Translations under genes and position numbers: made by a program
Part shown: positions 22,971-59,654 of the stretch, piece by piece
How positions within the stretch are numbered: the stretch's first letter is position 1
Layout: each line of letters opens with the position of its first letter
The notes under the pieces: model-generated
Seen by the model: the letters and a program-made list of their open reading frames with translations, nothing else
Databases searched by the model: none
Told to the model about the DNA's origin: nothing
From: Bacteroidales bacterium
Lineage (GTDB): Bacteria; Bacteroidota; Bacteroidia; Bacteroidales; P3
Assembly (NCBI GenBank): GCA_016292015.1
Contig: JAEEZY010000030.1
Location: 1 to 64,000, forward strand
Length of the DNA stretch: 64,000 bases
Reading direction: 5' to 3'

Positions 22971-23024
22971 CTAGATAAACTAGATACTCTAGAATAACTA
23001 GATAAACTAGAAATACTAGATGGT
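22971..23024 (+). repeat. 9-bp tandem array from feoB stop to next start codon
   Basis: Six units of CTAGATAAA type (CTAGATAAA, CTAGATACT, CTAGAATAA, CTAGATAAA, CTAGAAATA, CTAGATGGT) begin right after the feoB stop. The ATG of the next gene (23020) lies inside the last unit. Confidence 0.85.
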
Positions 23025-23199
23025 GCAGAAGATTATAGTAATCCTGATTGTTGTGGTGGCGGTGGCGTTCGCCATCCGGGCACTGGTGCGCACTATAAAA
23101 GGAAAGAGCAACTGCGGATGTGACTGCTGCAACTGCCCAAAATCTAGAAGTTCTAGATGTTCTAGCGACTCTAGAAATTCTAGTGATTCTAGAAACTAA
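23020..23199 (+). CDS. FeoB-associated Cys-rich membrane protein
   Basis: A 59-residue protein: one N-terminal membrane helix (VQKIIVILIVVVAVAFAI), a short basic segment, then a Cys cluster NCGCDCCNCP. This is the layout of the FeoB-associated Cys-rich membrane proteins (PF12669-like) usually found next to feoB; they are thought to assist iron transport, mechanism unknown. The last 18 residues (SRSSRCSSDSRNSSDSRN) are encoded entirely by six units of a 9-bp array related to the array before the gene, so the native protein probably ended near NCPK and was extended by the repeat. It lies 49 bases after feoB and is surely co-transcribed. Confidence 0.85.
   Translation: MVQKIIVILIVVVAVAFAIRALVRTIKGKSNCGCDCCNCPKSRSSRCSSDSRNSSDSRN
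23143..23196 (+). repeat. 9-bp tandem array translated as a Ser/Arg tail
   Basis: Six units of TCTAGAAGT type in codon register, ending directly at the TAA stop (23197-23199). The core CTAGA is shared with the array at 22971-23024. Confidence 0.85.
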
Positions 23200-23203
23200 C
23201 GGT

Positions 23204-23590
23204 TCACTTATACTTAAACTCCTCTATCTCGCGGCGGTCGCGCTTGGTTGGACGGCCACTGCCTCGGTCTCGTTTCTCAAAGCCATACTGCCGCACCATC
23301 TGTATGCGCTCATACTCTTCCTGCGGGGTTAGGTCGGTCATATAGTCGGGCACCAGCTTCGCAGCCACACGGTTATGCAGCAGTGCCTTCACCTCAATCA
23401 CCTTGTGAACCTGCTCAATGGAAAGTTCATACCTCTCTCCTACCCTCACCACATGAGAAGCTTTCAACACCTGTTCCCCCATCTTCACCTTTCCTGCACG
23501 GCAGGCATCAGAAGCGTTGCTGCGAGTCTTGTAAAGCCGCACGGACCAGAGGTACTTGTCGAGACGCAGTGGTTCTTGGTCTGTCGGCAT
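23204..23590 (-). CDS. hslR: Hsp15-like S4-domain RNA-binding protein
   Basis: 128 residues. An S4 RNA-binding domain fills the first half: LRLDKYLWSVRLYKTRS, then CRAGKVKMGEQVLKASHVV. The C-terminal part is strongly basic (KRDRGSGRPTKRDRREI), as in heat-shock protein 15. In E. coli Hsp15 binds 50S subunits carrying stalled nascent chains and helps recycle them. It is last in the minus-strand run after tonB, 4 bases beyond that stop, and its own stop is 4 bases from the end of the convergent Cys-rich FeoB partner. Length and motifs fit the family well. Confidence 0.88.
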   Translation of the reverse strand: MPTDQEPLRLDKYLWSVRLYKTRSNASDACRAGKVKMGEQVLKASHVVRVGERYELSIEQVHKVIEVKALLHNRVAAKLVPDYMTDLTPQEEYERIQMVRQYGFEKRDRGSGRPTKRDRREIEEFKYK

Positions 23591-23594
23591 ATAG

Positions 23595-24401
23595 TTATCT
23601 ATTTATATAGTTATAACGTATTCGTCCTTTCTGGACCTCCGGCGCACTAGGGTCTGGTTTGAAAGTGGTGCGTTTGGCTGCCGCCACAGCCTCGGCTTTC
23701 AACGAATTGACTGCCGAAGACGACTGCTTGTCAACATTGGCTTCAACCACTTTCCCTTCACGATTTACCATAATCACAACTTCAATCCACCCCTCAATAC
23801 TCCTGTTCTCCGAAGGACGCGACTTGTTTACCACGTTACGACCAGCGAGATAGTATGAATCCCCCCCCCCGCCATTGCCATTATAGTTCGTCGAATTAGG
23901 ATTTCCGTTAGGCTTGCCCATATTCCCACTGCCGTAAGTGTTACCGCTACTTCCACTATTCGAGTTGGAACCTGCGTTGGATGATGAGTTGCGGCTTCCC
24001 GGAAAGAGAGCGTTTTTGTTGATTTCAGGCTCCTTTGGTTTCTCAGGCTGCTTGGTCTCGGTAGGCGTGGTTGTTGTTTTCTCGGTAGGCTTGGTCTTTT
24101 CGGTCTTCTTTGGTATAGACACGGTCTCCTCGGTAGATTGGGTTGCCACGCTCTCTTGCGAGGTGGCAGGAGCAGGTTGTGGTGCGGCAGTGGTATTCTC
24201 GGATTGCGCTGGCATCATGTTGTCACCCATCCCGAAATCCGTGTTGCCTAAAGTAACCTCCACACCTCGTTCAGGGATAGGTGGATCCGGCGGAAAATGC
24301 TTAACCAAAATCAAAATAACGACAGTCACCGCGGTGATAAGGATCGTCACCGCAGCTGCTATCAGTTTATTTTTATTGGAATGAAAGTCGATATGAGGCA
24401 T
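23595..24401 (-). CDS. tonB: TonB energy-transducing protein
   Basis: 268 residues. A single N-terminal membrane helix (LIAAAVTILITAVTVVILIL) is followed by a long Pro/Lys/Thr-rich periplasmic spacer (about 75-130, with PTEKTTTTPTETKQPEKPKEP), a Gly/Asn/Ser-rich stretch and a C-terminal TonB-like domain (about 195-268: IEGWIEVVIMVNREGKVV ... RIRYNYINR). TonB carries proton-motive energy from ExbB-ExbD to outer-membrane receptors. Immediately before the C-terminal domain the gene has ten consecutive G (23861-23870), encoding GGG plus the first base of the following Asp codon; slippage there would remove the functional domain. The gene follows exbD after 11 bases. Confidence 0.9.
   Translation of the reverse strand: MPHIDFHSNKNKLIAAAVTILITAVTVVILILVKHFPPDPPIPERGVEVTLGNTDFGMGDNMMPAQSENTTAAPQPAPATSQESVATQSTEETVSIPKKTEKTKPTEKTTTTPTETKQPEKPKEPEINKNALFPGSRNSSSNAGSNSNSGSSGNTYGSGNMGKPNGNPNSTNYNGNGGGGDSYYLAGRNVVNKSRPSENRSIEGWIEVVIMVNREGKVVEANVDKQSSSAVNSLKAEAVAAAKRTTFKPDPSAPEVQKGRIRYNYINR
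23861..23870 (-). repeat. G10 homopolymer inside tonB
   Basis: Ten C on the plus strand, i.e. ten G in the coding strand, within the low-complexity stretch before the TonB C-terminal domain. Tracts of this length are typical slipped-strand phase-variation sites. Confidence 0.8.
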
Positions 24402-24412
24402 ATCAAATTGTC

Positions 24413-24823: not shown

Positions 24824-24833
24824 AGGATAAAAA

Positions 24834-24857
24834 GTTGATATGTTGATAAGTTGATAT
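24834..24857 (-). repeat. 8-bp array in the exbB-exbD spacer
   Basis: Three units of GTTGATAT type (GTTGATAT, GTTGATAA, GTTGATAT on the plus strand) fill most of the 50-base gap between exbB stop and exbD start. The same unit recurs eleven times at 59567-59654. Confidence 0.75.
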
Positions 24858-24873
24858 GGCCGAAAATCGCTTA

Positions 24874-25590: not shown

Positions 25591-25672
25591 AAGACATTTA
25601 ATTTTGACGTAAAATTACATCAAATAATAATCTTACGGATGAAAGCCAGCGTTTTATATCAACACTTCGGTG

Positions 25673-26392: not shown

Positions 26393-26479
26393 ATTAATTA
26401 TGAAAAATTCACTATCGATTTTCTTGGGGATTAATGATTGGACACCTACGGGTTCTCCCGTGTCCTGATGATTGTGGGT

Positions 26480-30019: not shown

Positions 30020-31057
30020 TTACTTGGTGAATATTTTCTGCCAGTTCTTGTATTCGCGGTCTTTCCATGCGCCGTTGTGATAGACATACGATGCTATGGC
30101 CGGGATGACTGTCGTACCTTCAGCATACACCATCTGCTGCAGTTCCTCGCTCACCTTGCCCCAGCTGCCGGCTTCGAGCAACGTGCTTGAAGAGCAGGCG
30201 CCGTCACGCACATCGGCGACGGTTATCTGTATGGCGTATTTGTGCATCGGAACCTCGTGGCCGAGAATCTCGGCGCAGACGACGGTGTCCTGTGCGAAGT
30301 TCTTGGGAGTGCCGCCACCCACCATGAAGAGGCCTGTCTGCGGGGCAGCCATCTTGATGCGAGTGAGTTCGACGAAGTCGCATACCGAGTCGATGCTGAG
30401 GTATTTCTCGCCCTTGTTGGCGCGCTCCCACTGGTGCTTTCCGATGCCGAATCCGGCGCTGCTGTCGCTGAAGGCGGGGCAGAAGATAGGCACACCGCAC
30501 TCGTAGCAGGTCTGAATAAGGCTGTCTTTCTTGACGGCGCGGCCGTTGTGGAGCCATTTGCCGAGCTCGTAGAGGAACTCGCGGCTGCTGTAGGGGCGAG
30601 CCTCCAGCATGTTGGAGAGCTCGTAGGTGGCGTTGTCGCAAGCCTGCAGCTCCTCCTCGTCGATGAAGGTGTCGTAGATGCGGTCGATATAGAGCTCACG
30701 CAGGACGGTGTCGGGGATGACGTTTTCCTTGGTGCCGACATAGTGTTTGAATCCGAGAGCCTCGAAGAGGTCCATATCGATGATGGAGGCGCCGGTCGAA
30801 ACCACCACGTCAATCATCTTGTTCTTCACCATATCCACATAAACCTGCATACAGCCAGCGGCGCTGGTGGAGCCAGCGAGAGTGAGGATGTTGGTGCAGT
30901 CGTGTTCTTTGCACATCATCGTCAGGATGTCGGCGGCACGAGCGGTGTCGCGGCTGGTGAACGACATGCCGCGCATGGCGTCGATAAGCTCGGTGGAGTC
31001 GTACTTCTTGATGTCGATGTGTTTGATGGTTTCTTTTAAAAGATCTTTCTTTTCCAT
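30020..31057 (-). CDS. Deoxyhypusine-synthase family protein
   Basis: 345 residues. Family features: the N-terminal part with LTLAGSTSAAGCMQVYVDMV and VVVSTGASIIDMD, the acidic NAD-site region CPAFSDSSAGFGIG, FMVGGGTPKNFAQD, and EAGSWGKVSEE, whose Lys corresponds to the lysine carrying the aminobutyl intermediate in eukaryotic DHS. Bacteria lack the eIF5A hypusine substrate, so bacterial members are thought to act on polyamines (homospermidine-synthase-like) or an unknown acceptor. It is coupled to the cysteine desulfidase-like gene downstream, and the upstream spacer holds a paired 27-bp repeat. Confidence 0.87.
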   Translation of the reverse strand: MEKKDLLKETIKHIDIKKYDSTELIDAMRGMSFTSRDTARAADILTMMCKEHDCTNILTLAGSTSAAGCMQVYVDMVKNKMIDVVVSTGASIIDMDLFEALGFKHYVGTKENVIPDTVLRELYIDRIYDTFIDEEELQACDNATYELSNMLEARPYSSREFLYELGKWLHNGRAVKKDSLIQTCYECGVPIFCPAFSDSSAGFGIGKHQWERANKGEKYLSIDSVCDFVELTRIKMAAPQTGLFMVGGGTPKNFAQDTVVCAEILGHEVPMHKYAIQITVADVRDGACSSSTLLEAGSWGKVSEELQQMVYAEGTTVIPAIASYVYHNGAWKDREYKNWQKIFTK

Positions 31058-31061
31058 ATTT

Positions 31062-31115
31062 TTAAATGATTAGTGACTAGAGAATTTTTTAAATGATTAG
31101 TGACTAGAGAATTGG
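31062..31115. repeat. Two copies of a 27-bp repeat in the dnaB-DHS spacer
   Basis: TTAAATGATTAGTGACTAGA repeats with a 27-base step (cores at 31064 and 31091), filling most of the gap between the dnaB stop and the next minus-strand start. Confidence 0.8.
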
Positions 31116-32867: not shown

Positions 32868-32981
32868 ATGGTTATCAGACGATTGAAATACATTTACAGA
32901 ATACAGCAGATAACCGTGGCGCAAATTTCAGCAGCGCAACAAACTGAAACACAGCGCAAGAAACAATTCCCCTCCGTATAA
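32868..32981 (+). CDS. Possible 37-residue small protein
   Basis: ATG at 32868 to TAA at 32979-32981, about 32 bases after the predicted transcript start. Composition is basic with Gln and Ala (VIRRLKYIYRIQQI at the start, QRKKQFPSV at the end), and it could form an amphipathic helix. There is no strong ribosome site. The codons also contain an inverted repeat GGTTATC/GATAACC (32870-32917), so the region may instead be a structured RNA. I do not recognise it. Confidence 0.25.
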   Translation: MVIRRLKYIYRIQQITVAQISAAQQTETQRKKQFPSV

Positions 32982-33096
32982 ACGCCGTATCGACACCGTA
33001 TCAACGACGTATTTAATACGTATCACCTTCGATACATCTTTAAGGTTCCTTTAGGGTTCATTCGGTACACCTTTAAGGTATCTTTAGGTTTTCTTC
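32976..33096 (+). repeat. 11-bp period degenerate array, eleven units
   Basis: Units step exactly 11 bases: GTATAAACGCC, GTATCGACACC, GTATCAACGAC, GTATTTAATAC, GTATCACCTTC, GATACATCTTT, AAGGTTCCTTT, AGGGTTCATTC, GGTACACCTTT, AAGGTATCTTT, AGGTTTTCTTC. Neighbouring units are more alike than distant ones, so the motif drifts along the array. Confidence 0.7.
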
Positions 33097-33248: not shown

Positions 33249-34385
33249 ATGAAAAGACTGATAACCATAATCGCGGCATTGATGTGCATCCTCCCCTACC
33301 GGCTTGCGGCACAGGAGGACACCCTCGTGTCGGGACTTGTGAAGAAGGCGCAGAACGCAGAGGGGCTTCACTTGAACGACCTGGCGCAGCAGTACTATGA
33401 GCAGGCGGTGGCGCTGGAGCCGGCGACGGCGGAGCCATACGTGAGCTTGGGGAAGCTGATGGAGCGGCAGGAGCACTACCAGAGCGCCATAGAGCTGTAC
33501 AGGAAGGCGCTGACCAAGAACGACGAATCGGCTGACGCATACGAACATCTGGCGTACTGCCTGACGGAGAAGGAGAAATATGACGAGGCGGAGCAGGCGG
33601 CGCAGAAGGCGATAGAGCTGAACCCGAAGTCGGCGTCGGCGATGGCGTCGATGGCGCTGGTGTTCAACTCGAGAGGGAGCCACACGAATGCGCTGACCTG
33701 GGCGAAGCGAGCGGTGGAGGCCGAGCCGAAATACAGCAGAGGATACAACGTGTGGGGGATCATCTGCTACAGCAAGGGGAACGACGCAGAGGCGATAGGG
33801 CACTTCAAGAAGGCGATAGCCACAGAGCCGGAGAACATAGACGCCTACGCGAACATAGGGACGATGTTCTGCATAAGGAACAACTACGAGTCGGCACTGA
33901 TATACCTGAAGAAAGGGCTGCAGCAGGAGCCGAAGTCGATAAAGATATACTACTGCCTTGGGTGGGCCTACCGGCTGAAAGGGGACAAGACGAAGGCGAT
34001 ACAATGCTACGAGACAATCATCGGGTTCGACAGCCTTTATGTGAAGGCGTACAACCGGCTGGGAGAGATATACAACGACAAGGCCGACTACGACCGTTCA
34101 ATCGCATACCACAAGAAGGCCACCAGGATAGCGCCCGACGACCCCAACGGATTCAAGGGGATGGGCAAGACATACTCGGACAAGGGCGACTACCCGAAGG
34201 CGCTGCACTCGTACCAGAAAGCGGTGCTGATAAACGACAAAGACCACGAGACATACTGCCTGATGGCGGAGCTATACCAGAGACAGGGCAACAGCCAGCG
34301 AGAGATGAACTCGTACAAGAAAGCGGCGAAGCTGGGAAACAAGAAGGCGCAGCAATGGCTGGTGAAGAGAGGAGCGACTTGGTAG
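33249..34385 (+). CDS. Secreted tetratricopeptide-repeat protein
   Basis: 378 residues: signal peptide (KRLITIIAALMCILPYRLAAQ), then about nine to ten TPR units covering nearly the whole mature protein, each with the usual Ala/Gly/Tyr/Pro positions (e.g. AIELYRKALTKNDESADAYE, AIAYHKKATRIAPDDPNGFK region). TPRs form a protein-binding superhelix, so this is probably a periplasmic scaffold; the partner is unknown. The stop codon TAG is the first three bases of a 24-bp hairpin array that runs toward der. Confidence 0.85.
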   Translation: MKRLITIIAALMCILPYRLAAQEDTLVSGLVKKAQNAEGLHLNDLAQQYYEQAVALEPATAEPYVSLGKLMERQEHYQSAIELYRKALTKNDESADAYEHLAYCLTEKEKYDEAEQAAQKAIELNPKSASAMASMALVFNSRGSHTNALTWAKRAVEAEPKYSRGYNVWGIICYSKGNDAEAIGHFKKAIATEPENIDAYANIGTMFCIRNNYESALIYLKKGLQQEPKSIKIYYCLGWAYRLKGDKTKAIQCYETIIGFDSLYVKAYNRLGEIYNDKADYDRSIAYHKKATRIAPDDPNGFKGMGKTYSDKGDYPKALHSYQKAVLINDKDHETYCLMAELYQRQGNSQREMNSYKKAAKLGNKKAQQWLVKRGATW

Positions 34386-34454
34386 TGCGTGCCCGCACAG
34401 AGCGGATAGTGCGTGCCCGCACGGGGCGATTAATGTGTACCCGCACAGGGTGAA
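34383..34454 (+). repeat. Three 24-bp units, each a hairpin, starting at the TPR stop codon
   Basis: Units start at 34383, 34407 and 34431 with the core GTGCGTGCCCGCAC, which folds as GTGCG-tgcc-CGCAC in the first two; the third (GTGTACCCGCAC) has decayed. Without a T-run they are weak terminators. Confidence 0.75.
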
Positions 34455-34509
34455 TAATTATGAACTGGAAAATTGTAAATTGAAATTGTGAGTTTTAAGT
34501 TTTGAACCT

Positions 34510-40412: not shown

Positions 40413-43037
40413 ATGGAAATAGCGTCGAGATACAATCCGGCTGCCGTTGAGGAGAAATGGTACTCCTTTTGGCTGGAGAAGAAAATCTTTCATTCCGAAC
40501 CCGATAACCGTCGTCCTTACACCGTTGTCATACCTCCTCCAAACGTGACGGGAGTATTGCACATGGGTCACATGCTGAACAACACCATTCAGGATGTCTT
40601 GGTGCGTCGCGCCCGCATGATGGGCAAGAACGCCTGCTGGGTGCCTGGCACCGACCACGCATCCATCGCCACCGAAGCCAAAGTGGTGAACATGCTGAAA
40701 GAGCGTGGGATAGACAAGCGCGACATCGGTCGCGACGAGTTTATGAAATATGCGTGGGAATGGAAAGAGGAGCACGGCGGCACCATCTTGAAACAGCTGC
40801 GGAAGCTGGGCGCAAGCTGCGACTGGGACCGCACGGCGTTCACGATGGACGACATCCGCTACGAGAGCGTGATACGAGTGTTCTGCGACCTGTATGACAA
40901 AGGGCTCATCTACCGCGGAGTTCGTATGGTGAACTGGGATCCGAAGGCGCTCACCGCTGTCAGCGACGAGGAGGTGATATACAAAGAGAGTCACGGCAAG
41001 CTGTTCTATTTGAGATATTTTGTAGAGGGCGAAGACCGCTATATCGTGGTGGCGACCACTCGTCCCGAGACCATCATGGGCGACACTGCGGTGTGTGTGC
41101 ATCCAGAGGACGAGCGATACCAGTGGCTGAAAGGCAAGAAAGTCATTGTGCCCGGCGTGGGACGCGCGGTGCCAATCATCATGGACGAGTATGTCGATAG
41201 GGAGTTCGGTACAGGCGCACTGAAGATCACTCCGGCGCACGACATCAACGACTACAACCTGGGCATGAAATACAGCCTCGAGTCGATAGACATCTTCAAC
41301 GACAACGGCACGCTGAACGAGCATGGCGGCAAATATGCGGGAATGGACCGTTTCGCCTGTCGCAAGCAGATTGTGAAAGACCTCGAGGAGGCCGGTTTGA
41401 TTGAGAAAATTGAGGATTACACCAACAAGGTGGGCCACTCGGAGAGAACCGACGCCGTAATAGAGCCGAAACTCTCGGCACAGTGGTTCATGAAGATGAG
41501 CGACATCGCAAAGAAGGCGCTGGAGGTGGTGGAAGACGACACGATACAGTTCCACCCCGAGAAGTTCAAGAACATCTATCGCCACTGGCTGGAGAACATC
41601 AAGGATTGGTGTATCAGCCGCCAGCTATGGTGGGGTCAGAGAATACCAGCCTATTATGTGGAGGTGAACGGGAAGACCGAGACGATTGTGGCACTGAACG
41701 AAGACGAGGCGCTGAAGAAAGCGCAAGAGAAATACGCCATCGATGACAAGACGAAGCTGCGTCAGGACGAGGATGTGCTGGACACTTGGTTCAGCAGCTG
41801 GCTGTGGCCCATCTCGCTCTTCGACGGCATAAGGAACCCCGACAACGACGAGATAAAATACTACTATCCCACCGACGACCTCATCACCGCACCCGACATC
41901 ATCTTCTTCTGGGTAGCCAGAATGATTATGGCCGGCGAGGAATACCGCAAGGAAGTGCCGTTCAAGCACGTCTATTTCACTGGCATCGTAAGAGACAAGT
42001 TGGGCAGGAAGATGAGTAAGAGCTTGGGCAACTCGCCCGACCCGATAGAGCTTATCGAGAAATACGGAGCCGACGGAGTCAGGATGGGGATGCTTCTCAC
42101 CGCTCCCGCGGGCAACGACCTGCCGTTTGACGAGAGCATCTGCGAACAGGGACGCAACTTCTCGAACAAGATGTGGAACGCCCTAAGGCTTGTGAAAGGG
42201 TGGCAAGTGAGCGACGAGATAAAGCAGAGCAAGGACAACGAGACGAGCGTGCAATGGATGGAGCAGCGGATGGCGTGCGTGCTGGAAGGCATAGAGTACG
42301 ACTTCGAACACTACCGTCTGAGCGAGGCGCTGATGAAGAGCTACAAGCTGGTGTGGGACGATTTCTGCTCGTGGTATCTGGAGATGGTGAAGCCCGCATA
42401 CGGCAGTCCCATCGACCGCGAGACATATATGGCGACACTCGGCATATTTGAGCGACTGATGTGCATACTGCACCCGTTCATGCCGTTTGTGACCGAAGAG
42501 ATATGGCACACGCTGAAAGAGCGTTGCGAGAGCGCGACGATCATGCTGCAACACATGCCGATGAGCGTGTTCTACGACCAGCGTATGCTCGACGACTTCG
42601 CCAACACCCAAGAGGTGATAGCCGGAGTGCGCGGCACTCGCAACAGCAAAGGCCTCTCGCCCAAGGAGACGCTGGACCTCTATGTGCGCGGCGACCACGC
42701 TGAGAACTTCAACGGATTGATAAAGAAGCTGGCTAACGTGGGCAAAATAGAAAGCACCGCCGAGAAGATGGAAGGGGCGACAACGTTCATGGTCGGCACG
42801 ACGGAATACTATATCCCAATGAGCCAGAACATTGACGTAGCCGCCGAACGCGAGAAGCTGGAAGCCGACCTGAAATATATGGAAGGATTCTTGAACAGCG
42901 TGATGAAGAAACTGTCGAACGAGAAATTCGTCAACGGCGCACCTGAGAAGGTGGTGAACGTAGAACGGCAGAAGAAAGCCGACGCCGAGCAGAAGATAGA
43001 GGCGCTGAAGGCACAGCTGGCAGCACTGGGGAAATAG
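40413..43037 (+). CDS. valS: Valyl-tRNA synthetase
   Basis: 874 residues, class Ia. HIGH-type motif in [15 protein letters not shown] and KMSKS in [18 protein letters not shown]. The CP1 editing domain lies between ([16 protein letters not shown]). The anticodon-binding domain and a C-terminal tRNA-binding coiled coil (about 805-874) follow. It charges tRNA-Val. Its stop codon is the first element of a 7-bp array leading to the FKBP gene. Confidence 0.97.
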
Positions 43038-43078
43038 TTTCAAGTTTTAAGTTTCAAGTTTTACGTTTTAAGTTTTGA
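43037..43078 (+). repeat. 7-bp array in the valS-FKBP spacer
   Basis: Six units with an exact 7-base step: GTTTCAA, GTTTTAA, GTTTCAA, GTTTTAC, GTTTTAA, GTTTTGA. It begins on the last base of the valS stop and ends 5 bases before the next ATG. Confidence 0.8.
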
Positions 43079-43083
43079 GATAA

Positions 43084-47429: not shown

Positions 47430-49778
47430 ATGAAAAGAATCTTTATATACACTCTCTTTGTATTGGGCTTTGGACTTAACATTGTCCATGCTTATGATTT
47501 CTCGGCCGTGGCTCCAAGCGGGCAAACGCTTTATTATAATATAAAGTCACCAACAACCGTTGAATGCGTAGGCCCAAGTGGAACTTCTAGCTCCACATGG
47601 AATGGATATATTAAACCATCGGGTTTATTAATTATCCCTTCCTCGGTAACGTATTCCGGATTATCATACACGGTAAATTCTATTGGAAGATATGCTTTTG
47701 CCTATTGTGATGCATTATCGTCAGTCACAATTCCCAATTCTATAATAAGAGTGGGCAGTTACGCATTTTTTGGCGATACTGCCTTGCATACGATTAATTT
47801 GCCAATGACGGGTATGACGATTGGAAACTGTGTTTTTAATTCAACAGGATGGTATCAGGATCAAGCAGATGGTCTTCTGATTATTGGCAATACGTTAGTC
47901 GGGTATAAAGGAACAATTCCATCAAATTATTCTTTAGTAGTTCCTTCTTATATAGTAAACATCGCCGGCGGTATTTCAAATCCAAGTAAAAGCAACATAG
48001 TTTCTATCTCACTTCCATCTTCAGTAAAATATATTGGAGATTATGCGTTTTATAACTGCAACATTACATCTATCTCATTCCCAAGCTCTCTTGAAGGAAT
48101 TGGCGAATGGGCTTTTTATGGGAATTTAATTACCTCAATAACCATACCAAGTTCCGTGACATATTTGGGAGGTGCTGCTTTTGGACAATGTGGTTCGCTC
48201 GCAACGGTCTATTATAACGCAATAAATGCGACGGTTTTAAATGAGGAAACCATAGCTTCTTTTTCGCCATTCTATAACTGTCCATCTTTCTCTTCATTAC
48301 ATATTGGTTCTGCTGTACAGAAAATCCCTGCATATTTATTTGACGGATGTTCAAATATTCTAGGATCATTATCATTACCCAATTCGCTAAATGAAATTGG
48401 AGATCATGCTTTTTATGGGTGTTCGAATATTCAAGGCACACTGTCATTGCCTAATTCATTACTAATAATAGGTGATAATGCATTCTCTGGATGTACTGGA
48501 TTGACGGGAGGTTTAATATTAGGCAACTCTGTACATACTGTAGGGTCATACTCATTTGGAGGATGTACAGGTATTTCGATGGTAACAATAGGAATCGCCG
48601 TGGATTCTATCGCCAGTTATGCTTTTAATGGAATGACCAGTTTGTCCACAATTAATTATAATGCTATCAATTGTAGATCTGCGATGTTTGCTTTTAGTAG
48701 TAATACTAATGTCAGCAATTTTAATATTGGCTCAACTGTACAAACAATTCCAGATTATTTAATATCTAGCTGTCCAAATATAACGTCAGTATCTTTTCCT
48801 TCAACACTAACAAAAATAGGAATGAGTGATTTTTCTTCCTGTGGATTAATTGGGGCAGTTATTCTTCCAGCAAGCCTGACCCAAATAGGCTATAATGCAT
48901 TCTCTGGATGTGCGGGAATTACAAGTGTTCAATGTAATGCGACAATACCGCCTGTTGTTGAGTCGTATTATGGATATTATTTTGTTTTTTCATCAAACTT
49001 AACTTCGCCACTTTACGTACCATGCTCTAGCATAAGTGCATACCAATCAGCTGCTGGCTGGAGCAATTTTACAAATATTTTAGGAATTGGTGGATGCAAC
49101 TATACGGTAACTCTTTCTGTAAATAATCCAACCATGGGAACAGTCTCTGGTGGCGGAACATATACTCAAGGTGCTACGGCCACAATTTCTGCGACGGCTA
49201 ATAGTGGGTATCACTTTGAGCATTGGGGTGATGGGAATACACAAAATCCACGTTCTTTAACTGTGACTAGCGATATTTCACTTACTGCGTATTTCGAAGC
49301 AAATCCCGTCACACAATATACAATAACCGTCAATTCCAATAATGCCACAATGGGCAGTGCAAGCGGTGGGGGAACTTTCAACGAAGGAACAACCACAACA
49401 ATAACCGCAACGGCTAATAGTGGCTACCATTTTACGCAGTGGCAAGATGGTAACACCAGTAATCCACGGACAATCACAGTGACGGGCAACGCCACCTATA
49501 CCGCATATTTCGATGGCTCCAACCGCATCGACGATGTGGAAACAACCGACAACCTGAAAGCCTACACCCGCGGCAACACGATTGTGATAGACTTTAGCGG
49601 GCAGCAGGCGGCGGACAGTAGGCAGAACGTTGTGGTCTATGATGTTATGGGAAGGGTGATTAAGCAGGTAGCAGACAGCGGTCAGCAGGCAGCGGTTGAG
49701 ATACCAGTCACTTCGGCTGGAGTATATATGGTGAAAGTTGGCGACCAGCCATCACGGAAAGTGGTGGTGAGACCGTAG
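47430..49778 (+). CDS. BspA-like leucine-rich-repeat protein with T9SS type-A sorting domain
   Basis: 782 residues. Signal peptide (KRIFIYTLFVLGFGLNIVHA), then about 15 LRR_5 (BspA-type) repeats (about 60-540; e.g. SIGRYAFAYCDALSSVTIPN, EIGDHAFYGCSNIQGTLSLP). Two divergent InlB B-repeat-like domains follow (about 557-693: GTYTQGATATISATANSGYH ... HWGDGN, GTFNEGTTTTITATANSGYH ... QWQDGN). A C-terminal type-A T9SS domain ends it (VVVYDVMGRVIKQV ... AGVYMVKVGDQPSRKVVV). BspA relatives bind host proteins; adhesion is inferred here. The gene is clearly more AT-rich than its neighbours up to about 49500, then shifts to the local composition in the sorting domain, as if a foreign ectodomain had been joined to a resident C-terminus. 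Confidence 0.9.
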   Translation: MKRIFIYTLFVLGFGLNIVHAYDFSAVAPSGQTLYYNIKSPTTVECVGPSGTSSSTWNGYIKPSGLLIIPSSVTYSGLSYTVNSIGRYAFAYCDALSSVTIPNSIIRVGSYAFFGDTALHTINLPMTGMTIGNCVFNSTGWYQDQADGLLIIGNTLVGYKGTIPSNYSLVVPSYIVNIAGGISNPSKSNIVSISLPSSVKYIGDYAFYNCNITSISFPSSLEGIGEWAFYGNLITSITIPSSVTYLGGAAFGQCGSLATVYYNAINATVLNEETIASFSPFYNCPSFSSLHIGSAVQKIPAYLFDGCSNILGSLSLPNSLNEIGDHAFYGCSNIQGTLSLPNSLLIIGDNAFSGCTGLTGGLILGNSVHTVGSYSFGGCTGISMVTIGIAVDSIASYAFNGMTSLSTINYNAINCRSAMFAFSSNTNVSNFNIGSTVQTIPDYLISSCPNITSVSFPSTLTKIGMSDFSSCGLIGAVILPASLTQIGYNAFSGCAGITSVQCNATIPPVVESYYGYYFVFSSNLTSPLYVPCSSISAYQSAAGWSNFTNILGIGGCNYTVTLSVNNPTMGTVSGGGTYTQGATATISATANSGYHFEHWGDGNTQNPRSLTVTSDISLTAYFEANPVTQYTITVNSNNATMGSASGGGTFNEGTTTTITATANSGYHFTQWQDGNTSNPRTITVTGNATYTAYFDGSNRIDDVETTDNLKAYTRGNTIVIDFSGQQAADSRQNVVVYDVMGRVIKQVADSGQQAAVEIPVTSAGVYMVKVGDQPSRKVVVRP

Positions 49779-49900: not shown

Positions 49901-49950
49901 TCAGCAAACCACACTCTCACACTCTAGTATTCAAACATTTACAAAAGTCG

Positions 49951-50005
49951 CTTCGATCTAGCTTCGATTTAGCTTCGATATAGGTTCGAATGAGCTTCGA
50001 GTCAA
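49951..50005 (+). repeat. 11-bp array, five units
   Basis: CTTCGATCTAG, CTTCGATTTAG, CTTCGATATAG, GTTCGAATGAG, CTTCGAGTCAA at 49951, 49962, 49973, 49984 and 49995, an exact 11-base step. Confidence 0.85.
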
Positions 50006-50168
50006 CGCCCACCCCGCTTTGACCTCGCCAGTACCCATCTTCGACATGGGTCGTATTGGAAGAGGAAAGAAGTCAGAAGGAAGAGGGAAGATGTAAGAAG
50101 TCTGAAGGAAGAAGTAAGAAGGAAAGAAGGATGGATGTGGTTCGTGGTTCAATTCGAGTTAAGGTTAA

Positions 50169-50223
50169 CGTTATATCAACATAACCCAAAGATAAACTCA
50201 AGATAAACCTAATATAAACCTAA
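50169..50223 (+). repeat. 11-bp array, five units
   Basis: CGTTATATCAA, CATAACCCAAA, GATAAACTCAA, GATAAACCTAA, TATAAACCTAA. Same period as the array at 49951 but a different motif. Confidence 0.75.
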
Positions 50224-51839: not shown

Positions 51840-51845
51840 GTATTG

Positions 51846-51866
51846 GTTTATAGTTTACGGTTTTAG
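51846..51866 (+). repeat. 7-bp array between pyrI and the next gene
   Basis: GTTTATA, GTTTACG, GTTTTAG, directly followed by TATG containing the next start codon. Same family as the array at 43037. Confidence 0.6.
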
Positions 51867-52320: not shown

Positions 52321-52394
52321 GGTCCCTTAGCTCAGTCGGTTAGAGCAACTGACTCATAATCAGTGGGTCCTTGGTTCGAGCCCAAGAGGGACCA
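52321..52394 (+). tRNA. tRNA with CAU anticodon (Met or Ile2)
   Basis: 74 bases folding as a full cloverleaf: acceptor GGTCCCT/AGGGACC, D-arm GCTC/GAGC, anticodon arm ACTGA-CTCATAA-TCAGT, T-arm CTTGG-TTCGAGC-CCAAG. Discriminator A; the 3-prime CCA is not encoded. CAU can be elongator Met or, after lysidine modification, Ile. The acceptor stem and GGnCCCTTAGCTCAG start are closer to E. coli tRNA-Ile2, so Ile2 is a real possibility. Confidence 0.93.
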
Positions 52395-52447
52395 CAGACA
52401 AAGCGGAACAGGAAAAGTTCCGCTTTTTTCACAAAAGGAGATTCGTC

Positions 52448-52864
52448 ATGGGACGCATAATGGCAATAGACTATGGAAAGAAGCGCACAGGGCTGGCTGT
52501 CACCGATCCCGAGCGCATCATAGCCACAGGTCTCACCACCGTTGAGACACCAAAGCTGATGCAGTTCATGGCCGACTACTTTGCGAAAGAGACGGTGGAC
52601 ACCATTGTGGTGGGCGAGCCAAAACAGATGGACAACACACCCTCGGAGTCGGCACGGTATATCGAACCGTTTCTTGGTGAGCTCGCAAAGAAATTCCCCG
52701 ACAAAGAGATATGCCGCGCAGACGAGCGGTTTACCTCGAAGATTGCTTTTCAGGCCATGATTGACGGTGGCTTGAAGAAAAAACAACGACAGAACAAAGC
52801 ATTGATAGACACTATAAGCGCGACACTGATACTGCAAAGCTATATGGCGAGCTGCAAACAATAG
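52448..52864 (+). CDS. ruvX: YqgF/RuvX-type resolvase-like nuclease
   Basis: 138 residues, RNase H-like fold: first strand with catalytic Asp AIDYGKKRTGLAVTD, VVGEPKQMDN, DERFTSKIAF and a C-terminal Asp in ALIDTISATLIL. Members act in pre-16S rRNA 5-prime processing and/or Holliday-junction resolution. It follows the tRNA and precedes def. Confidence 0.92.
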   Translation: MGRIMAIDYGKKRTGLAVTDPERIIATGLTTVETPKLMQFMADYFAKETVDTIVVGEPKQMDNTPSESARYIEPFLGELAKKFPDKEICRADERFTSKIAFQAMIDGGLKKKQRQNKALIDTISATLILQSYMASCKQ

Positions 52865-52878
52865 GCAGCAGACAGCAA

Positions 52879-52920
52879 ATTCAAGTTTCAAGTTTCAACC
52901 TTCAATTTTCAATTCTTATG
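52879..52920 (+). repeat. 7-bp array running into the def start codon
   Basis: ATTCAAG, TTTCAAG, TTTCAAC, CTTCAAT, TTTCAAT, TCTTATG: exact 7-base step, and the last unit contains the ATG of def at 52918. Confidence 0.75.
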
Positions 52921-54373: not shown

Positions 54374-54400
54374 CAAAGAATACATACCTAAATTACCATC

Positions 54401-56536
54401 ATGACCGACTACGCCAACACAATCGCATTGCAGATGCACCTCTCGGTGCAGCAGGTGGCCCGCACCATACAACTTCTGGAAGGAGGCGCCACCATCCCGT
54501 TCATTGCCCGCTACCGCAAGGAGGCAACGGGGTCACTTGACGAGGTGCAGGTGGCTGCCATACGCGACGCCCTCACGAAACTTAAGGAGGTGGATGCTCG
54601 CCGCGAGGCTATAATAGAGAGCATCGACAAACAAGAGAAACTGACGCCTGAACTGCGAGAGCAACTGGAGAAAGCGTCCACGCTGCAGGAGCTCGAAGAC
54701 CTCTACCTGCCATATAAGCCGAAACGTCGCACCCGCGCTATGATGGCTCGAGAGAAAGGACTTGAGCCGCTGGCCGACTGGCTGATGCGTCAGGTTGACT
54801 CGCCTCTCGAGAACGCTGCCCGACCCTATCTCTCTGAGGAGAAAGGGGTGGCCTCTGTCGATGACGCCCTCGCGGGCGCCCGTGACATCATAGCAGAGAG
54901 GGTGAACGAGAACGTAGGCTCGCGCAACGTGGTGCGCAACATATTCCGCCGCAAGGCGCAGCTCTCGTCGACGGTGGTGAAAGGCAAGGAGGAGGAAGGA
55001 CACAAGTTCGAGTCGTGGTTTGACTGGAGCGAGCAGGCGATGAGGGCTCCGTCGCACAGGATTCTCGCCCTCATGCGTGGCGAGGAGGAGGGTTTTCTTA
55101 GAGTCCACGTGCTGCCGTCGGATGCAGAAGAGGCCTACGCCGCGTTGGATCGCCATTATGTGCACAACTCGTCGCCTGCCGCCGAGCAGGTGAGGATGGC
55201 CGTGCACGACGGCTACAAGAGACTGATGGAGCCTTCGATTGAGAGCGAGTACCGTGCGATGCTGAAAGAGAAGGCCGACAGGGAGGCCATAAGGGTCTTC
55301 GCCGAGAACTTGAAACAGCTGCTGCTGGCTCCACCACTGGGACAGAAGCGCATACTGGCCATCGACCCGGGATTCCGTACCGGCTGCAAGACCGTCTGCC
55401 TCGACGCACAGGGACAGCTGCTGCATAACGAGACCATATACCCCTTCACCTCGGTGCGCGAAGAGCGTGCGGCGATAGCCAAGCTGGAGGCACTGGTGGA
55501 GGCGTTCCATATAGAGGCCATAGCCATAGGCAACGGCACGGCCGGTCGCGAGACGGAGGAGGTGGTGCAGCGTTGCCACTTCAAGACGAAAGTGGTGGCG
55601 GTGGTGGTGAACGAGAGCGGTGCAAGCGTCTATAGCGCATCGGATGTGGCACGGAGGGAATTCCCAGACTATGACGTAACGGTACGAGGTGCGGTGTCGA
55701 TAGGACGCCGATTGATGGACCCGCTGTCTGAGCTGGTGAAGATTGACCCGAAGTCGATAGGTGTTGGGCAGTATCAGCACGATGTGGACCAGAAGATGCT
55801 GCAGAGCAGTCTGGACGACGTGGTGATGAGCTGTGTGAACAGCGTGGGTGTGGAGCTCAACACCGCTTCGCGCGAGCTGCTTTCATACGTGAGTGGCATC
55901 GGTCCGGCGCTGGCCGACAACATAGTGCGCTATCGCAACCGCGAGGGGGCTTTCTCGTGCCGAGAAGAGCTGCTTAAGGTTGAGCGTCTCGGGGCAAAAG
56001 CCTACGAGCAGAGTGCAGGATTCCTGCGTGTGCGAGAGTCGAAGAACCCGCTGGACCACAGCGCCGTACACCCAGAACGCTATGCGTTGGTGGAGAAGAT
56101 GGCAAAGTCGGTGGGATGCGACGTGCAGACCCTTGTGGACAGCAAGGAGGCGCGGGCGAAGGTGGACATCAGACAGTTCGTGTCGGACGACTGCGGCCTG
56201 CCCACCTTGAACGACATCATGAAAGAACTCGACAAGCCCGGCCTCGACCCCAGGGCGAAGTTCGAGGTGTTCGAATTCGACAAGAACGTGTCGAAGATGG
56301 AGGACTTGAAAGAAGGGATGGTGCTTCCGGGCATCGTGACCAACATAACGGCGTTCGGTGCATTCGTAGATGTGGGTGTGCATCAGGACGGACTGGTGCA
56401 TATCAGCCAGCTTGCCAACAGGCGAGTGAACGACCCGTCGGAGGTGGTGCACCTGCACCAGCATGTAAAAGTGAAGGTGATGGAGGTGGACCTGCGGCGA
56501 CATCGCATCTCTTTGACGATGAAGTGCGTGGAGTAA
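54401..56536 (+). CDS. tex: Tex-like RNA-binding transcription accessory protein
   Basis: 711 residues. N-terminal helical region (GGATIPFIARYRKEATGSLD), YqgF-like domain (RILAIDPGFRTGCKTVCLDA), helix-hairpin-helix region (LLSYVSGIGPALADNIVRYR) and C-terminal S1 domain (about 640-711, EGMVLPGIVTNITAFGAFVD ... DGLVHISQLA). Tex proteins bind nucleic acid and influence transcription and stress tolerance. The order and length match the family. The stop codon is joined to a 7-bp array. Confidence 0.95.
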   Translation: MTDYANTIALQMHLSVQQVARTIQLLEGGATIPFIARYRKEATGSLDEVQVAAIRDALTKLKEVDARREAIIESIDKQEKLTPELREQLEKASTLQELEDLYLPYKPKRRTRAMMAREKGLEPLADWLMRQVDSPLENAARPYLSEEKGVASVDDALAGARDIIAERVNENVGSRNVVRNIFRRKAQLSSTVVKGKEEEGHKFESWFDWSEQAMRAPSHRILALMRGEEEGFLRVHVLPSDAEEAYAALDRHYVHNSSPAAEQVRMAVHDGYKRLMEPSIESEYRAMLKEKADREAIRVFAENLKQLLLAPPLGQKRILAIDPGFRTGCKTVCLDAQGQLLHNETIYPFTSVREERAAIAKLEALVEAFHIEAIAIGNGTAGRETEEVVQRCHFKTKVVAVVVNESGASVYSASDVARREFPDYDVTVRGAVSIGRRLMDPLSELVKIDPKSIGVGQYQHDVDQKMLQSSLDDVVMSCVNSVGVELNTASRELLSYVSGIGPALADNIVRYRNREGAFSCREELLKVERLGAKAYEQSAGFLRVRESKNPLDHSAVHPERYALVEKMAKSVGCDVQTLVDSKEARAKVDIRQFVSDDCGLPTLNDIMKELDKPGLDPRAKFEVFEFDKNVSKMEDLKEGMVLPGIVTNITAFGAFVDVGVHQDGLVHISQLANRRVNDPSEVVHLHQHVKVKVMEVDLRRHRISLTMKCVE

Positions 56537-56570
56537 GTTTTCAGTTTCAAGTTTTTAGTTTTTAGTTTAT
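56536..56570 (+). repeat. 7-bp array starting at the tex stop codon
   Basis: AGTTTTC, AGTTTCA, AGTTTTT, AGTTTTT, AGTTTAT, exact 7-base step. A shorter piece of the same family is at about 56670-56690. Confidence 0.7.
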
Positions 56571-56738
56571 TCGCTTCATTTTATTTATTTATTCGCTTGA
56601 TTTGATATTATAAAGACGTGCTCATGAATGCTTCGCATTTCAGCGGTGCTCATGGCCTTCGGCACAAGTTTTAGTTTTTAGTTTCAAGTGGCTGGTGCGG
56701 TCACAGGTCATAGGTCAAAAATTCACAATTCATAAATC

Positions 56739-57503
56739 ATGTTTAGGAAGATTCTTTTTTGTTCTATTTTTTGCTTTACTGCAATAATTTTCTCGTCGTG
56801 CCATCATGAGACGGAGCTGGAGAAAATAGTACGTCACGCGAACAAACGCTGCCCGGTCATCATCACCGACGGGATGCGGCTCGACAGCATAACCGTAAGC
56901 AAACCTCATTCCGCAGACAGTAGTCAGAGACTCACCTACTACGTTACGCTGTTCGGCATCTACGAGGAGGAGTGGATGAAAGATGTGGTCGAAGCAAACC
57001 TCGAAGGGCTCGACGAGCGACAGGTGTCCGCACTTCTGGCTCAGGGACTTAAGGACGACCCTCAGTTTGACCACATCTTGAAGCAGAGCGACTGCGACCT
57101 CACGCTGGTGCTGCAATATGCCGACGGGCGTCAGGTGAAGAGCTTCGACATAGACCCCGCGGCCACCGACAGCACCGACGGAAACTCAGCCACCATGGAC
57201 ATCATACGTCGCGACGTGCAGAACTCCAACGCCGCCTGCCCGATGGAGATAGCCCAAGGCATCACGATGCAGTCGGTTACGCTGGACGACGAGGAGACGG
57301 CGGTCACATACGTGTTCCGCATCGGTGGCGAAGGCATCACGCCCGAAAGCGTGGACCGCTCGCTGCTCGAAGGGCTGCAAGCCAGCATATCCGCCGACCT
57401 CGAGACAAACCCCGCCATGCGGATATACCGCGACAACGGGATTTCAATCAAATACATCTTCGAGAACGAGGATGGGATAGAGTTGTACGGTTTTGTATTT
57501 TGA
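56739..57503 (+). CDS. Lipoprotein with two copies of a Cys-Pro domain
   Basis: 254 residues. Lipobox FSSC (Cys about 21). Two similar halves: ANKRCPVIITDGMRLDSITV ... LTYYVTLFG (about 32-80), and NAACPMEIAQGITMQSVTLD ... VTYVFRIGG (about 163-205). Each has an N-x-x-C-P motif followed by a Met/Arg-Asp-Ser or Met-Gln-Ser strand pattern. I do not recognise the domain. A third copy is in the next gene. Probably an envelope protein whose two Cys could form a disulfide. Confidence 0.8.
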   Translation: MFRKILFCSIFCFTAIIFSSCHHETELEKIVRHANKRCPVIITDGMRLDSITVSKPHSADSSQRLTYYVTLFGIYEEEWMKDVVEANLEGLDERQVSALLAQGLKDDPQFDHILKQSDCDLTLVLQYADGRQVKSFDIDPAATDSTDGNSATMDIIRRDVQNSNAACPMEIAQGITMQSVTLDDEETAVTYVFRIGGEGITPESVDRSLLEGLQASISADLETNPAMRIYRDNGISIKYIFENEDGIELYGFVF

Positions 57504-57532
57504 ATAGTCCCCGCCAATCAACACCTAATATT

Positions 57533-57955: not shown

Positions 57956-57987
57956 CGCTTTTACATCAAAGTCACTGCAAAGCCATA

Positions 57988-58005
57988 TCAAAGCCATGTT
58001 AAAGC
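57988..58005 (+). repeat. 18-bp dispersed repeat, second copy
   Basis: TCAAAGCCATGTTAAAGC, identical to 5872-5889. Here it is part of a run of shorter CAAAGCCAT-like units between two convergent genes. Confidence 0.75.
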
Positions 58006-58013
58006 CTCTCGTT

Positions 58014-59558
58014 TTATTTGCGGCGGAGGGCTATGAAGGGTATCATGATTTCCTCCATGGAAACTCCGCCGTGCTGGAAGGTGCCGGTGTAGTACTGGAC
58101 GTACTGGTTGTAGTTGTTGGGGTAGGCGAAGAAGTCGTTCTCGCGGGCGAAGATGTAGGGGGAGGTGACGTAGAGCTTGGGCATGGCGATGGTGCGCGGG
58201 TCTCTCACCTCATAGACGTCCTTGGGGTTGTAGTCGAGCAGCCGTCCTTGCTTATAGCGTAGGTTTACGGATACCGAGCTGTCTCCCTTGACCCTGACCG
58301 GACTGTTGACCATTGTCGAGCCGTGGTCAGTGGTTATCACCACATTCACATCGCGTTCAGCCAGTTCTTTTATAAACTCGATGAGCGGCGAATGCTCGAG
58401 CCAAGAGAGGGTGAGCGAACGGTAGGAGCGCTCGCTGCCAGCCAGCTCGCGCACGATGTCGCTCTCGGTGCTGGCGTGGGAGAGCATATCAATGAAATTA
58501 TACACTACCACGTTCAGCTGGTTCTGCATCATGTCGTTGACGCCGTCCACCAGACGCTTGCCATACTGGGCATTGAGGACCTTGTGGTAGGTGTGCCTGA
58601 TATTGAAGCCATTGCGTCTCAGGTTTTCATCCAGCAACTGGTCTTCATACTGATTTTTATGTCCTTCTTGATTCTCGTTAACCCAGTATTGGGGGTATTT
58701 CTTCTCTATCTCTGCCGGCATCAACCCAGCGAACATGGCGTTACGGGCGAACTGGGTCGTGGTGGGCAGGATGCTGAAGAAGATTCCGTCATCCTCAACC
58801 CGCAGATAACTCTCAACCAAGGGCTGTATATACTTCCACTGGTCGTAGCGGAAATTGTCGATGACGATAACGAAAGTCGGCCTCTGCTCCTTCAGCAGCG
58901 GGAAGAGTCTCTCTCTGAAAACCATGGGCGAGAGCGTGGGTTTCTCGCCCCGTCCGGCGAGCCAGTCCTCATAGTTGCGCTCATACCAACGACAGAACTG
59001 ACGGTTGGCCTCAGCCTTCTGAGAGCGGAAGATGTCGTGAATGTTCTCGTCCTGGTTGTCGGCAAGTTCGAGATCCCAATAGACGAGCTTCTTGTAGAGC
59101 CCCACCCACTCGTGCGCATCGAGGCGGCCGCCGAGTTCCATGCCAATCTCGCGAAACTGCTGCTGGTAGGACATGGACGATTTCTCGCTGGTGAGCCGCT
59201 TGGCTTCGGTGTGCTTCTTGACGGTGAGGAGTATCTGCTTGGGGTTGACGGGCTTGATGAGGTAGTCGCTTATCTTGCTGCCGATGGCCTCGTCCATGAT
59301 GTGCTCCTCTTCGCTCTTGGTAATCATGACGACGGGGATGGAGGGGTAGCGGTTCTTGATTTGGGTGAGAGTGTCGAGGCCGCTGAGGCCAGGCATGTTC
59401 TCGTCGAGGAAGACGATGTCAATGTCGTGAACGGAGAGTTCGTCGAGGGCTTCGTTGCCGCTGGTGACGGGAACGACCTTATAGTCGCGTTCTTCAAGAA
59501 AAAGTATATGGGGCTTGAGGAGTTCAATCTCGTCGTCGGCCCAAAGGATGGTGGTCAT
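58014..59558 (-). CDS. porX: PorX-type response regulator with PglZ phosphatase domain
   Basis: 514 residues. Receiver domain 1-120: acidic pair D8/D9 (LWADDE), phospho-acceptor D52 (VFLDENMPG), MITKS and YLIKPVNP. The C-terminal PglZ/alkaline-phosphatase-like domain has FVIVIDNFRYDQWKYIQPLV, NFIDMLSHAS and VVITTDHGSTMVN, which hold the metal ligands. This layout is that of PorX, which with the PorY kinase and SigP controls T9SS genes in Porphyromonas. porY is not in the window. Its likely targets include secretion of the four T9SS cargo proteins seen here (inference). Confidence 0.93.
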   Translation of the reverse strand: MTTILWADDEIELLKPHILFLEERDYKVVPVTSGNEALDELSVHDIDIVFLDENMPGLSGLDTLTQIKNRYPSIPVVMITKSEEEHIMDEAIGSKISDYLIKPVNPKQILLTVKKHTEAKRLTSEKSSMSYQQQFREIGMELGGRLDAHEWVGLYKKLVYWDLELADNQDENIHDIFRSQKAEANRQFCRWYERNYEDWLAGRGEKPTLSPMVFRERLFPLLKEQRPTFVIVIDNFRYDQWKYIQPLVESYLRVEDDGIFFSILPTTTQFARNAMFAGLMPAEIEKKYPQYWVNENQEGHKNQYEDQLLDENLRRNGFNIRHTYHKVLNAQYGKRLVDGVNDMMQNQLNVVVYNFIDMLSHASTESDIVRELAGSERSYRSLTLSWLEHSPLIEFIKELAERDVNVVITTDHGSTMVNSPVRVKGDSSVSVNLRYKQGRLLDYNPKDVYEVRDPRTIAMPKLYVTSPYIFARENDFFAYPNNYNQYVQYYTGTFQHGGVSMEEIMIPFIALRRK

Positions 59559-59566
59559 GATGGATT

Positions 59567-59654
59567 GTTGATAGGTTGATACGTTGATGGGTTGATATGT
59601 TGATATGTTGATATGTTGATATGTTGACAGGATGATGGGTTGATTTGTTGGTTT
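59567..59654 (+). repeat. 8-bp array, eleven units, between porX and mfd
   Basis: Exact 8-base step of GTTGATAT-type units (GTTGATAG, GTTGATAC, GTTGATGG, four GTTGATAT, GTTGACAG, GATGATGG, GTTGATTT, GTTGGTTT). It starts 9 bases upstream of the porX start codon and therefore forms its 5-prime leader. The same family lies before exbD. Confidence 0.9.

Follow-up and report, generated by a model that had tools for sequence, protein, structure and literature searches.

Short tandem arrays with steps of 7, 8 and 11 bp in the intergenic spacers of a Bacteroidales genome and its congeners

In the window studied here, that is, the 64,000 nt forming bases 1-64000 of contig 35 of a Bacteroidales genome (G000; 2.54 Mb, 35 contigs), many gaps between genes are occupied by short tandem arrays, whose degenerate units follow each other head to tail at a constant step. 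The same kind of array recurs through the genome and in its congeners, occupying roughly one gene gap in four and also some loops of conserved enzymes; the step is mostly 7, 8 or 11 bp, and the arrays are probably the product of a fast copying process without function. Genes were called by a greedy longest-ORF (open reading frame) rule, which gives exact stop and rough start positions, and arrays by a simple autocorrelation score, with Tandem Repeats Finder (TRF) as an independent caller. The closest relative found, G014, whose valS is 96% identical to that of G000, is referred to as the sister species. The arrays of the window, and the gene into which one of them extends, are listed below; a strand is given where one applies, and arrays missing from the initial annotation are marked as new.

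22969..23021, 9-bp array of CTAGATAAA-like units with a 27-bp higher-order repeat, between the feoB stop codon and the start of the FeoB-associated gene
23020..23199, plus strand, gene of a small FeoB-associated Cys-rich membrane protein (PF12669, 44.4 bits), the 3' end of which is the second 9-bp array
23139..23195, plus strand, 9-bp array of TCTAGAAAT-like units, coding and in frame, protein tail SRSSRCSSDSRNSSDSRN
24834..24858, 8-bp array, 3.1 copies of GTTGATAT, identical in the sister species
31059..31113, 27-bp tandem duplication, 2.0 copies, between genes of the deoxyhypusine synthase family and DnaB helicase; none called in G014
32972..33062, 11-bp degenerate array of GTATCAACGCC-like units, found by TRF and shuffle test
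34383..34458, 24-bp array, 3.1 copies, beginning on the TPR-protein gene's stop codon; der follows
43036..43079, 7-bp array AGTTTTA/AGTTTCA, beginning within the valS stop codon; none called in G014
49950..50000, 11-bp array GCTTCGATTTA, upstream of pyrB
50058..50150, 7-bp degenerate array AAGAAGT, upstream of pyrB; new
50178..50223, 11-bp array ATAAACCTAAG, upstream of pyrB
51844..51863, claimed 7-bp array GTTTATA, short and alone not significant (P=0.54)
52880..52914, 7-bp array TTCAAGT, before a gene for peptide deformylase; in G014 this spacer holds an 8-bp array
56534..56568, 7-bp array AGTTTTT, beginning at the stop of the gene at 54401-56536
56669..56740, 7-bp degenerate array sharing its spacer with the one at 56534; new
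57967..58006, 11-bp array CAAAGCCATAT; new
59566..59662, 8-bp array GTTGATAT, about 11 copies with 24-bp higher order, upstream of or into mfd

That short constant-step arrays exist, as the initial annotation had proposed, is confirmed by comparing the best segment at each claimed period with 500 dinucleotide shuffles of the surrounding 200 bp, scored at any period from 5 to 30: 12 of the 13 arrays then listed reach P=0.002, the floor of the test. Autocorrelation and TRF recover these as well; the exception throughout is the claimed heptamer array at 51846, which scores 7. The top TRF score may fall on a higher-order period (27 bp for the array at 22968, 14 for 43036, 22 for 49950 and 24 for 59567). 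The array at 23143, then taken for spacer, is actually (23143-23195) the in-frame 3' end of the FeoB-associated gene. In the intergenic regions sampled, periodicity exceeds that of shuffled spacers. In the window, 10 of 33 spacers beat all 200 of their own shuffles, where about 0.2 would be expected, and in G000 61 of 225 beat 100 of 100 (2.2 expected; 395,771 bases, window included). A second script, which allows several arrays per spacer, places 80 arrays in 61 of 234 G000 spacers vs 2.0 in shuffles (mean of 3); the density of arrays in this genome is 2.19/kb in spacers vs 0.132/kb in coding sequence.

Eight congeners pooled have 281 arrays in 791 spacers (TRF counts 279), with spacers bearing an array numbering 76 of 274 in G014, 30 of 106 in G023, 12 of 86 in G016 and 3 of 38 in G018; G018 is no richer than four other Bacteroidales families, which, sampled alike, together have arrays in 21 of 358 spacers. 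The pooled counts omit a stretch of G009 (L129) and the genus-like loci L001-L008, in which 1 of 12 and 6 of 54 spacers, respectively, had an array in the shuffle test; G018, G015, G008 and G004 were sampled only around valS, and congener searches covered 40 congeneric genomes taken from a larger group. The valyl-tRNA synthetase of G000 shares 93% identity with its counterpart in an uncultured Bacteroidales metagenome-assembled genome (L001, Reindeer_2) and 76-81% with those of seven further loci (L002-L008), several of them titled deer or yak forestomach and one titled "bacterium P3"; to judge from these titles, the array-bearing group probably consists of uncultured rumen bacteria.

The steps are quantised. 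Among the 281 arrays the fundamental period is 7 bp in 77, 8 in 47 and 11 in 81, with nine arrays at 9, seven at 6, one each at 5, 10 and 12, and none at 13. TRF distributes its 279 arrays similarly (6 bp, 7; 7 bp, 92; 8 bp, 65; 9 bp, 16; 10 bp, 4; 11 bp, 79), with none at 5, 12 or 13. In 77 congener loci around valS, RNase R and DXS (389,731 bp), arrays in spacers and in coding sequence number 15 and 27 for step 7, 6 and 4 for step 8, 3 and 20 for step 9, and 15 and 2 for step 11. The balance of heptamers to 11-mers is 24 vs 19 in G000 and 77 vs 81 in the pooled genus; the spacer arrays of G016 include 11-mers and neither 7- nor 8-mers. For some arrays of the 8-bp unit AATCAAGC (RNase R and DXS of G014) the fundamental-period rule returns 4, because the unit has a weak half-repeat; the DXS alignment gives 8.

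At 72 loci of other Bacteroidales (688 spacers, 78 arrays) the steps are again 7 (19 arrays), 8 (11) and 11 (8), with two arrays at 9, one at 10 and none at 5, 6, 12 or 13; there is also a separate class at 21 (7), 22 (14) and 23 bp (4). One distant locus, L044 (Lentimicrobiaceae SIG107), alone supplies 7 of the 19 heptamer arrays; 9 of its 11 spacers score as arrays, mostly of 7 or 8 bp. Arrays of 21-22 bp, about two helical turns, lie at L011 13914-14268, L024 6435, L040 8533, L075 5586 and L080 20974, and no 11-bp sub-period is apparent in them by eye. The units of these other Bacteroidales, judged by eye, are unlike those of the genus, a hint that the step preference may not go back to a single inherited family. 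The period is a property of the genome, not of the locus, and the preference for 7, 8 and 11 most likely reflects the slippage or copying machinery.

Individual arrays turn over quickly. The sampled stretches contain 40 spacers orthologous between G000 and G014; 26 of these have an array in neither species, five only in G000, five only in G014 and four in both. One of these four keeps the 9-bp unit GTCCGACAA, with one extra copy in G014; the other three differ in period (7 vs 8, 7 vs 16 and 23 vs 8). Alignments reveal two of the one-sided cases as artefacts of threshold or ORF overlap: the GTTGATAT array at 24834 does not differ between the species, and a 7-mer array has five copies in G000 vs four in G014, a clean 7-bp difference. 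With these two and the GTCCGACAA pair, 3 of the 14 array-bearing pairs clearly keep their unit. At L134 8461 the two species have the same array, their sequences being nearly identical throughout this region (45 nt of flank included). In G000 a 28-bp (4x7) array separates a stop codon from the start codon that directly follows it in G014, and indels of unit length between the two species occur at two loci. Conservation of the period at a locus under drifting sequence, as had been envisaged, is not what orthologous spacers display; the suggestion that spacing matters finds support solely in the form of a preference of whole genomes for 7, 8 and 11, and none as a constraint at each locus, because orthologous spacers gain, lose or change arrays.

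The units form lineage-restricted families at many loci. Within one genome consensus units recur at separate sites: the fraction of 11-mer arrays with a partner in another spacer (at least 10 of 11 positions identical) is 0.32 in G000, 0.28 in G014, 0.44 in G023 and 0.70 in G016, where shuffled units give means of 0.00-0.01 and maxima of 0.11-0.20. Sharing of 11-mers with other genomes amounts to 0 in G016, 0.06 in G023, 0.47 in G000 and 0.24 in G014; 7- and 8-mer units are common to several genomes more widely (0.56-0.88), and sharing of heptamer units lies above every null draw only in G000. Whole genomes were also searched with single patterns, counting overlapping matches, so that the number of arrays is lower than the counts. 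A tandem of two and a half AATCAAGC units with at most 2 mismatches matches 193 times in G014, 92 in G002, 73 in G022, 65 in G019, 24 in G021 and 23 in G000; it is absent from 9 of 24 congeners, and only one of 16 more distant genomes has any (2 matches). The reversed pattern, as control, has no match in most genomes and eight each in G021 and G028. For GTGATTA (197 matches in G006, 130 in G000, 66 in G005, 60 in G014) this control is invalid, as the reversed string is a rotation of the unit. The 11-mer AAAGTCATGGT is confined to two of 41 genomes (22 matches in G000, 11 in G014, none in the 39 others). When loci are compared for exact matches of at least 2 units, 7 of 9 genome-period sets have more of them than a unit-order null (16 vs 9.2 for the 7-mers of G014), and single-unit copies outside arrays rise above every null draw only for two G016 families among the eight families tried. 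A further array of the AAAGTCATGGT family lies just beyond the window, at 67023-67121 of contig 35.

Arrays are also found inside proteins. The coding sequence of the eight congeners holds 254, of which 52 are interior with a period that is not a multiple of three (some of the short ORFs are surely not genes). In G014, in-frame arrays of the AATCAAGC type lie in RNase R, DXS, a MurL-like protein, a MATE transporter and a LacZ-type protein; one peptide cassette recurs in enzymes unrelated to each other. The insert in DXS, eight residues encoded by an 8-bp array, is present only in G014 and G000 among 30 aligned orthologues. The array in RNase R is present in G014 and absent from G000, and in G015 a distinct 8-bp array occupies another loop of this enzyme; the MATE protein of G014 has 12 more residues than that of G000 in one loop, with a period-8 array. 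ORFs of 300 aa or more contain 24 interior arrays with a period of 7, 8, 10 or 11, and 20 of these have no stop on the sense strand, which is consistent with what selection would leave. The best RNase R match in G000 (L235) has one TAG inside.

The observation that arrays start on or directly after a stop codon extends to the whole genus: counting from where the upstream stop codon ends, 50 of 195 array starts lie at -5 to +4, a span of two 5-nt bins, about fourfold the background given by neighbouring bins (about 6 each), and the stop codon is inside the array in 57 of 195. Arrays at stops contain sense stops about as commonly as antisense stops (25 and 22 of 39), so that stop-codon insulation is rejected and a role as a stop trap gains no support; the plain reading is that the stop codon marks the edge of the region tolerating insertion, with the first unit matching the stop itself by chance. 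No excess of array ends is seen at start codons, where they had also been described (0.10 vs 0.10 for random positions within 2 nt, and 0.18 vs 0.15 within 6 nt, start calls being crude). Spacers between convergent genes have arrays somewhat more commonly (44 of 127) than those between co-directional genes (111 of 513) or divergent genes (38 of 151).

Inside the arrays, identity between units at lags 1 to 5 falls from 0.80 over 0.74, 0.68 and 0.63 to 0.56 for 7-mers, and from 0.76 over 0.68, 0.60 and 0.54 to 0.51 for 11-mers; 8-mers flatten near 0.68. Similarity at lag 2 is above that at lags of at least 3 in 71 of 91 arrays, and identical units are in excess at even lags (0.160 at lag 2, 0.080 at lag 3, 0.122 at lag 4). 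This decay with unit distance, together with the unit-length indels, points to stepwise slippage, and a second process is needed because unit families sit at scattered loci. The explanation favoured here, held with better than even confidence, is that the arrays are this lineage's version of prokaryotic short tandem repeats of the STRR (short tandemly repeated repetitive) or LSSR (long simple sequence repeat) type, forming dispersed lineage-specific families. They would lengthen and shorten by whole units through replication slippage, decay by point mutation, and often be lost or changed between sister species; new sites may be seeded by copied short array segments, via microhomology template switching or ectopic conversion; and arrays would accumulate where they are harmless, that is, in spacers outward from the stop codon and in permissive protein loops where stop-free strands survive. 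Slippage by whole units, which the initial annotation had considered, is supported by the copy differences between species and by the greater likeness of neighbouring units, whereas copying of short segments between loci can be put forward only weakly. No evidence was found for a function of the spacing.

Several results weigh against this explanation. Neither the gaps at 5, 10, 12 and 13 nor the shared units would follow from slippage alone, and similarity at lag 1 is partly built in by the array-finding method. Sharing of heptamer units stays inside the shuffled-unit null in G014 and G023; the excess of multi-unit matches is small, was judged from eight null draws without a significance test, and does not extend to the 7-mers of G000 and G023; and no donor-recipient copying event was caught. 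Most protein insertions are of another kind: 2 of 24 RNase R inserts of at least 5 residues hold an array, and 56 G000/G014 gene pairs have 17 interior in-frame indels spanning 4 residues or more, of which 3 are arrays. Congeners also differ, from the 3 of 38 spacers of G018 to the 12 of 86 of G016, in which 10 of 13 arrays are 11-mers.

Among the other explanations, chance, composition or assembly artefact can be given almost no credence: the single array that fits it is the one at 51846, not significant on its own, and it is already contradicted by the spacer shuffle tests (80 arrays vs 2.0 in G000) and the period counts, by the presence of arrays in several genomes assembled separately and by a DXS insert common to two species. 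An unlikely alternative is that the arrays are functional, acting as spaced protein-binding sites on DNA or RNA, with the binder setting the period, or as stop traps or insulators. Quantised periods and the peak of starts at stop codons (50 of 195) would suit this, as would the post-transcriptional role proposed by MacGregor for TAACTGA repeats (PMC4679880); it is opposed by the few array-bearing orthologous spacers that keep their array, by 11-mer units that differ among congeners, by the near-equal numbers of sense and antisense stops at gene ends and by the arrays within enzymes. Purely local slippage at each locus, without dispersal and with units shared through composition, is quite unlikely as well; it accounts for the unit-length indels, the decay of similarity with distance and the heptamer sharing within the null in G014 and G023, but not for 11-mer families common to spacers far above shuffled units, the 193 overlapping matches of the AATCAAGC tandem in G014 or one peptide cassette in unrelated enzymes.

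The insertion of arrays by a mobile element, either resembling a MITE (miniature inverted-repeat transposable element) or REP (repetitive extragenic palindrome) or working by templated addition as reverse transcriptase or telomerase does, appears improbable. Bursts are patchy between species, as such an element would produce, and the in-frame insertions recall the Rickettsia palindromic elements, palindromic repeated DNA inserted in frame in unrelated protein genes (here DXS, RNase R and MATE); those elements are palindromic, however, whereas the arrays are direct tandem short units. BrickBuilt of Porphyromonas gingivalis is a MITE with a 23-nt minisatellite, likewise a tandem repeat dispersed in a Bacteroidales genome (PMC4596501). 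Against an element stand the many unrelated units of several lengths per genome, which would require many elements, and the rarity of same-unit inverted pairs among array pairs of one spacer (0 of 32 in G000, 3 of 102 in G014, 1 of 53 in G023). MITE-type ends were not noticed, terminal repeats and target-site duplications not having been searched for. Addition templated by reverse transcriptase is rejected, as PF00078 (RVT_1) has no match in the array-rich G000 or G023 (one in G014). Loss of mismatch repair is likewise rejected, with mutS1 above cut-off in 39 of 41 genomes including G000, G014 and G023, and slip lengths set by helical turns, with 21-22 bp favoured within arrays, are not seen, 7- and 11-mer identity falling smoothly with lag. 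At L044, forward and reverse-complement arms in one spacer can be made out by eye, for example at 14319-14389. A bolder version of the favoured explanation, which we regard as possible and put forward tentatively, is that the 7/8/11-bp tandem families are a transposase-free class of selfish DNA, spreading in lineage bursts via template switching into spacers and enzyme loops, and that the quantised step, found with other units in other Bacteroidales families, would directly mirror a constant distance by which the replication or repair machinery slips.

The kind of repeat is already known. LSSRs with units of 5-11 nt are reported across bacteria, heptamers being commonest in most genomes (PMC4679880); abundant intergenic heptamer arrays are known from cyanobacteria, Xanthomonas and Beggiatoaceae (PMC4692102, PMC4679880); and according to a survey of prokaryotic genomes, repeats with units of 4-11 nt are for the most part represented at normal levels (PMC4060949). 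The arrays of the genus share the LSSR/STRR characters, that is, head-to-tail 5-11 nt units beyond chance and concentrated in intergenic DNA, and resemble LSSRs and the cyanobacterial heptamers also in the abundance of heptamers and in being patchy among relatives; they differ in that three steps (7, 8 and 11) dominate, the units are strongly degenerate, each genome has many unit families, turnover is fast and copies lie in frame within conserved enzymes. The TAACTGA repeats of Beggiatoaceae, Cyanobacteria and some Bacteroidetes are likewise intergenic tandem heptamers, some overlapping the upstream stop and some inside ORFs, with mobility suspected; MacGregor also notes other heptamer arrays in Bacteroidetes (PMC4679880). 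Unlike the arrays described here, they have one fixed unit, and neither a rotation nor the reverse complement of TAACTGA is found among the 24 heptamer consensus units of G000. The GGGAATC and GGGGA(C/T)T repeats of Xanthomonas and Nostoc (PMC4692102) are heterogeneous, mostly intergenic heptamers that vary in length and sequence between close relatives, as here; they represent one G-rich quadruplex-forming type, however, and the majority lie between the same genes in two species, whereas here units are many, of several lengths, and few keep their place.

The statement that no described system explains the arrays was thus too strong, intergenic tandem 5-11 nt repeats, heptamers foremost, being already known (PMC4692102, PMC4679880); the initial interpretation is partly supported, namely for slippage and the genome-wide spacing preference, and not for constraint per locus or the lack of any known system. 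A literature search found no description of 7/8/11-bp arrays in rumen Bacteroidales, and as far as it shows, neither the several quantised steps nor the density and turnover of the arrays, nor their copies in conserved enzymes, have been described for this group. A printed proposal holds that heptamers are common as about 7 nt is the length of DNA contacting the polymerase (PMC4692102, PMC4679880); it would need extension to 8 and 11. Three step classes with near-empty gaps in several related genomes make this idea testable against polymerases and repair enzymes. The arrays supply gene spacers with new DNA and conserved enzymes with new peptide loops, and could reveal how bacterial DNA slips and spreads.

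A few other features of the window may be recorded. A tRNA-Met at 52321-52395 overlaps a called minus-strand ORF (52340-52891) without Pfam match, which is probably not a gene. At 30020-31057 a protein of the deoxyhypusine synthase family (PF01916) is encoded, in a bacterium, adjoining the DnaB-helicase gene. The protein at 47430-49778 carries a sorting domain of the type IX secretion system, and 58014-59558 encodes a response regulator with a PglZ domain, the combination of domains present in PorX. Two very long minus-strand ORFs adjoin each other at 5962-12960 and 13284-19508 (2332 and 2074 aa).

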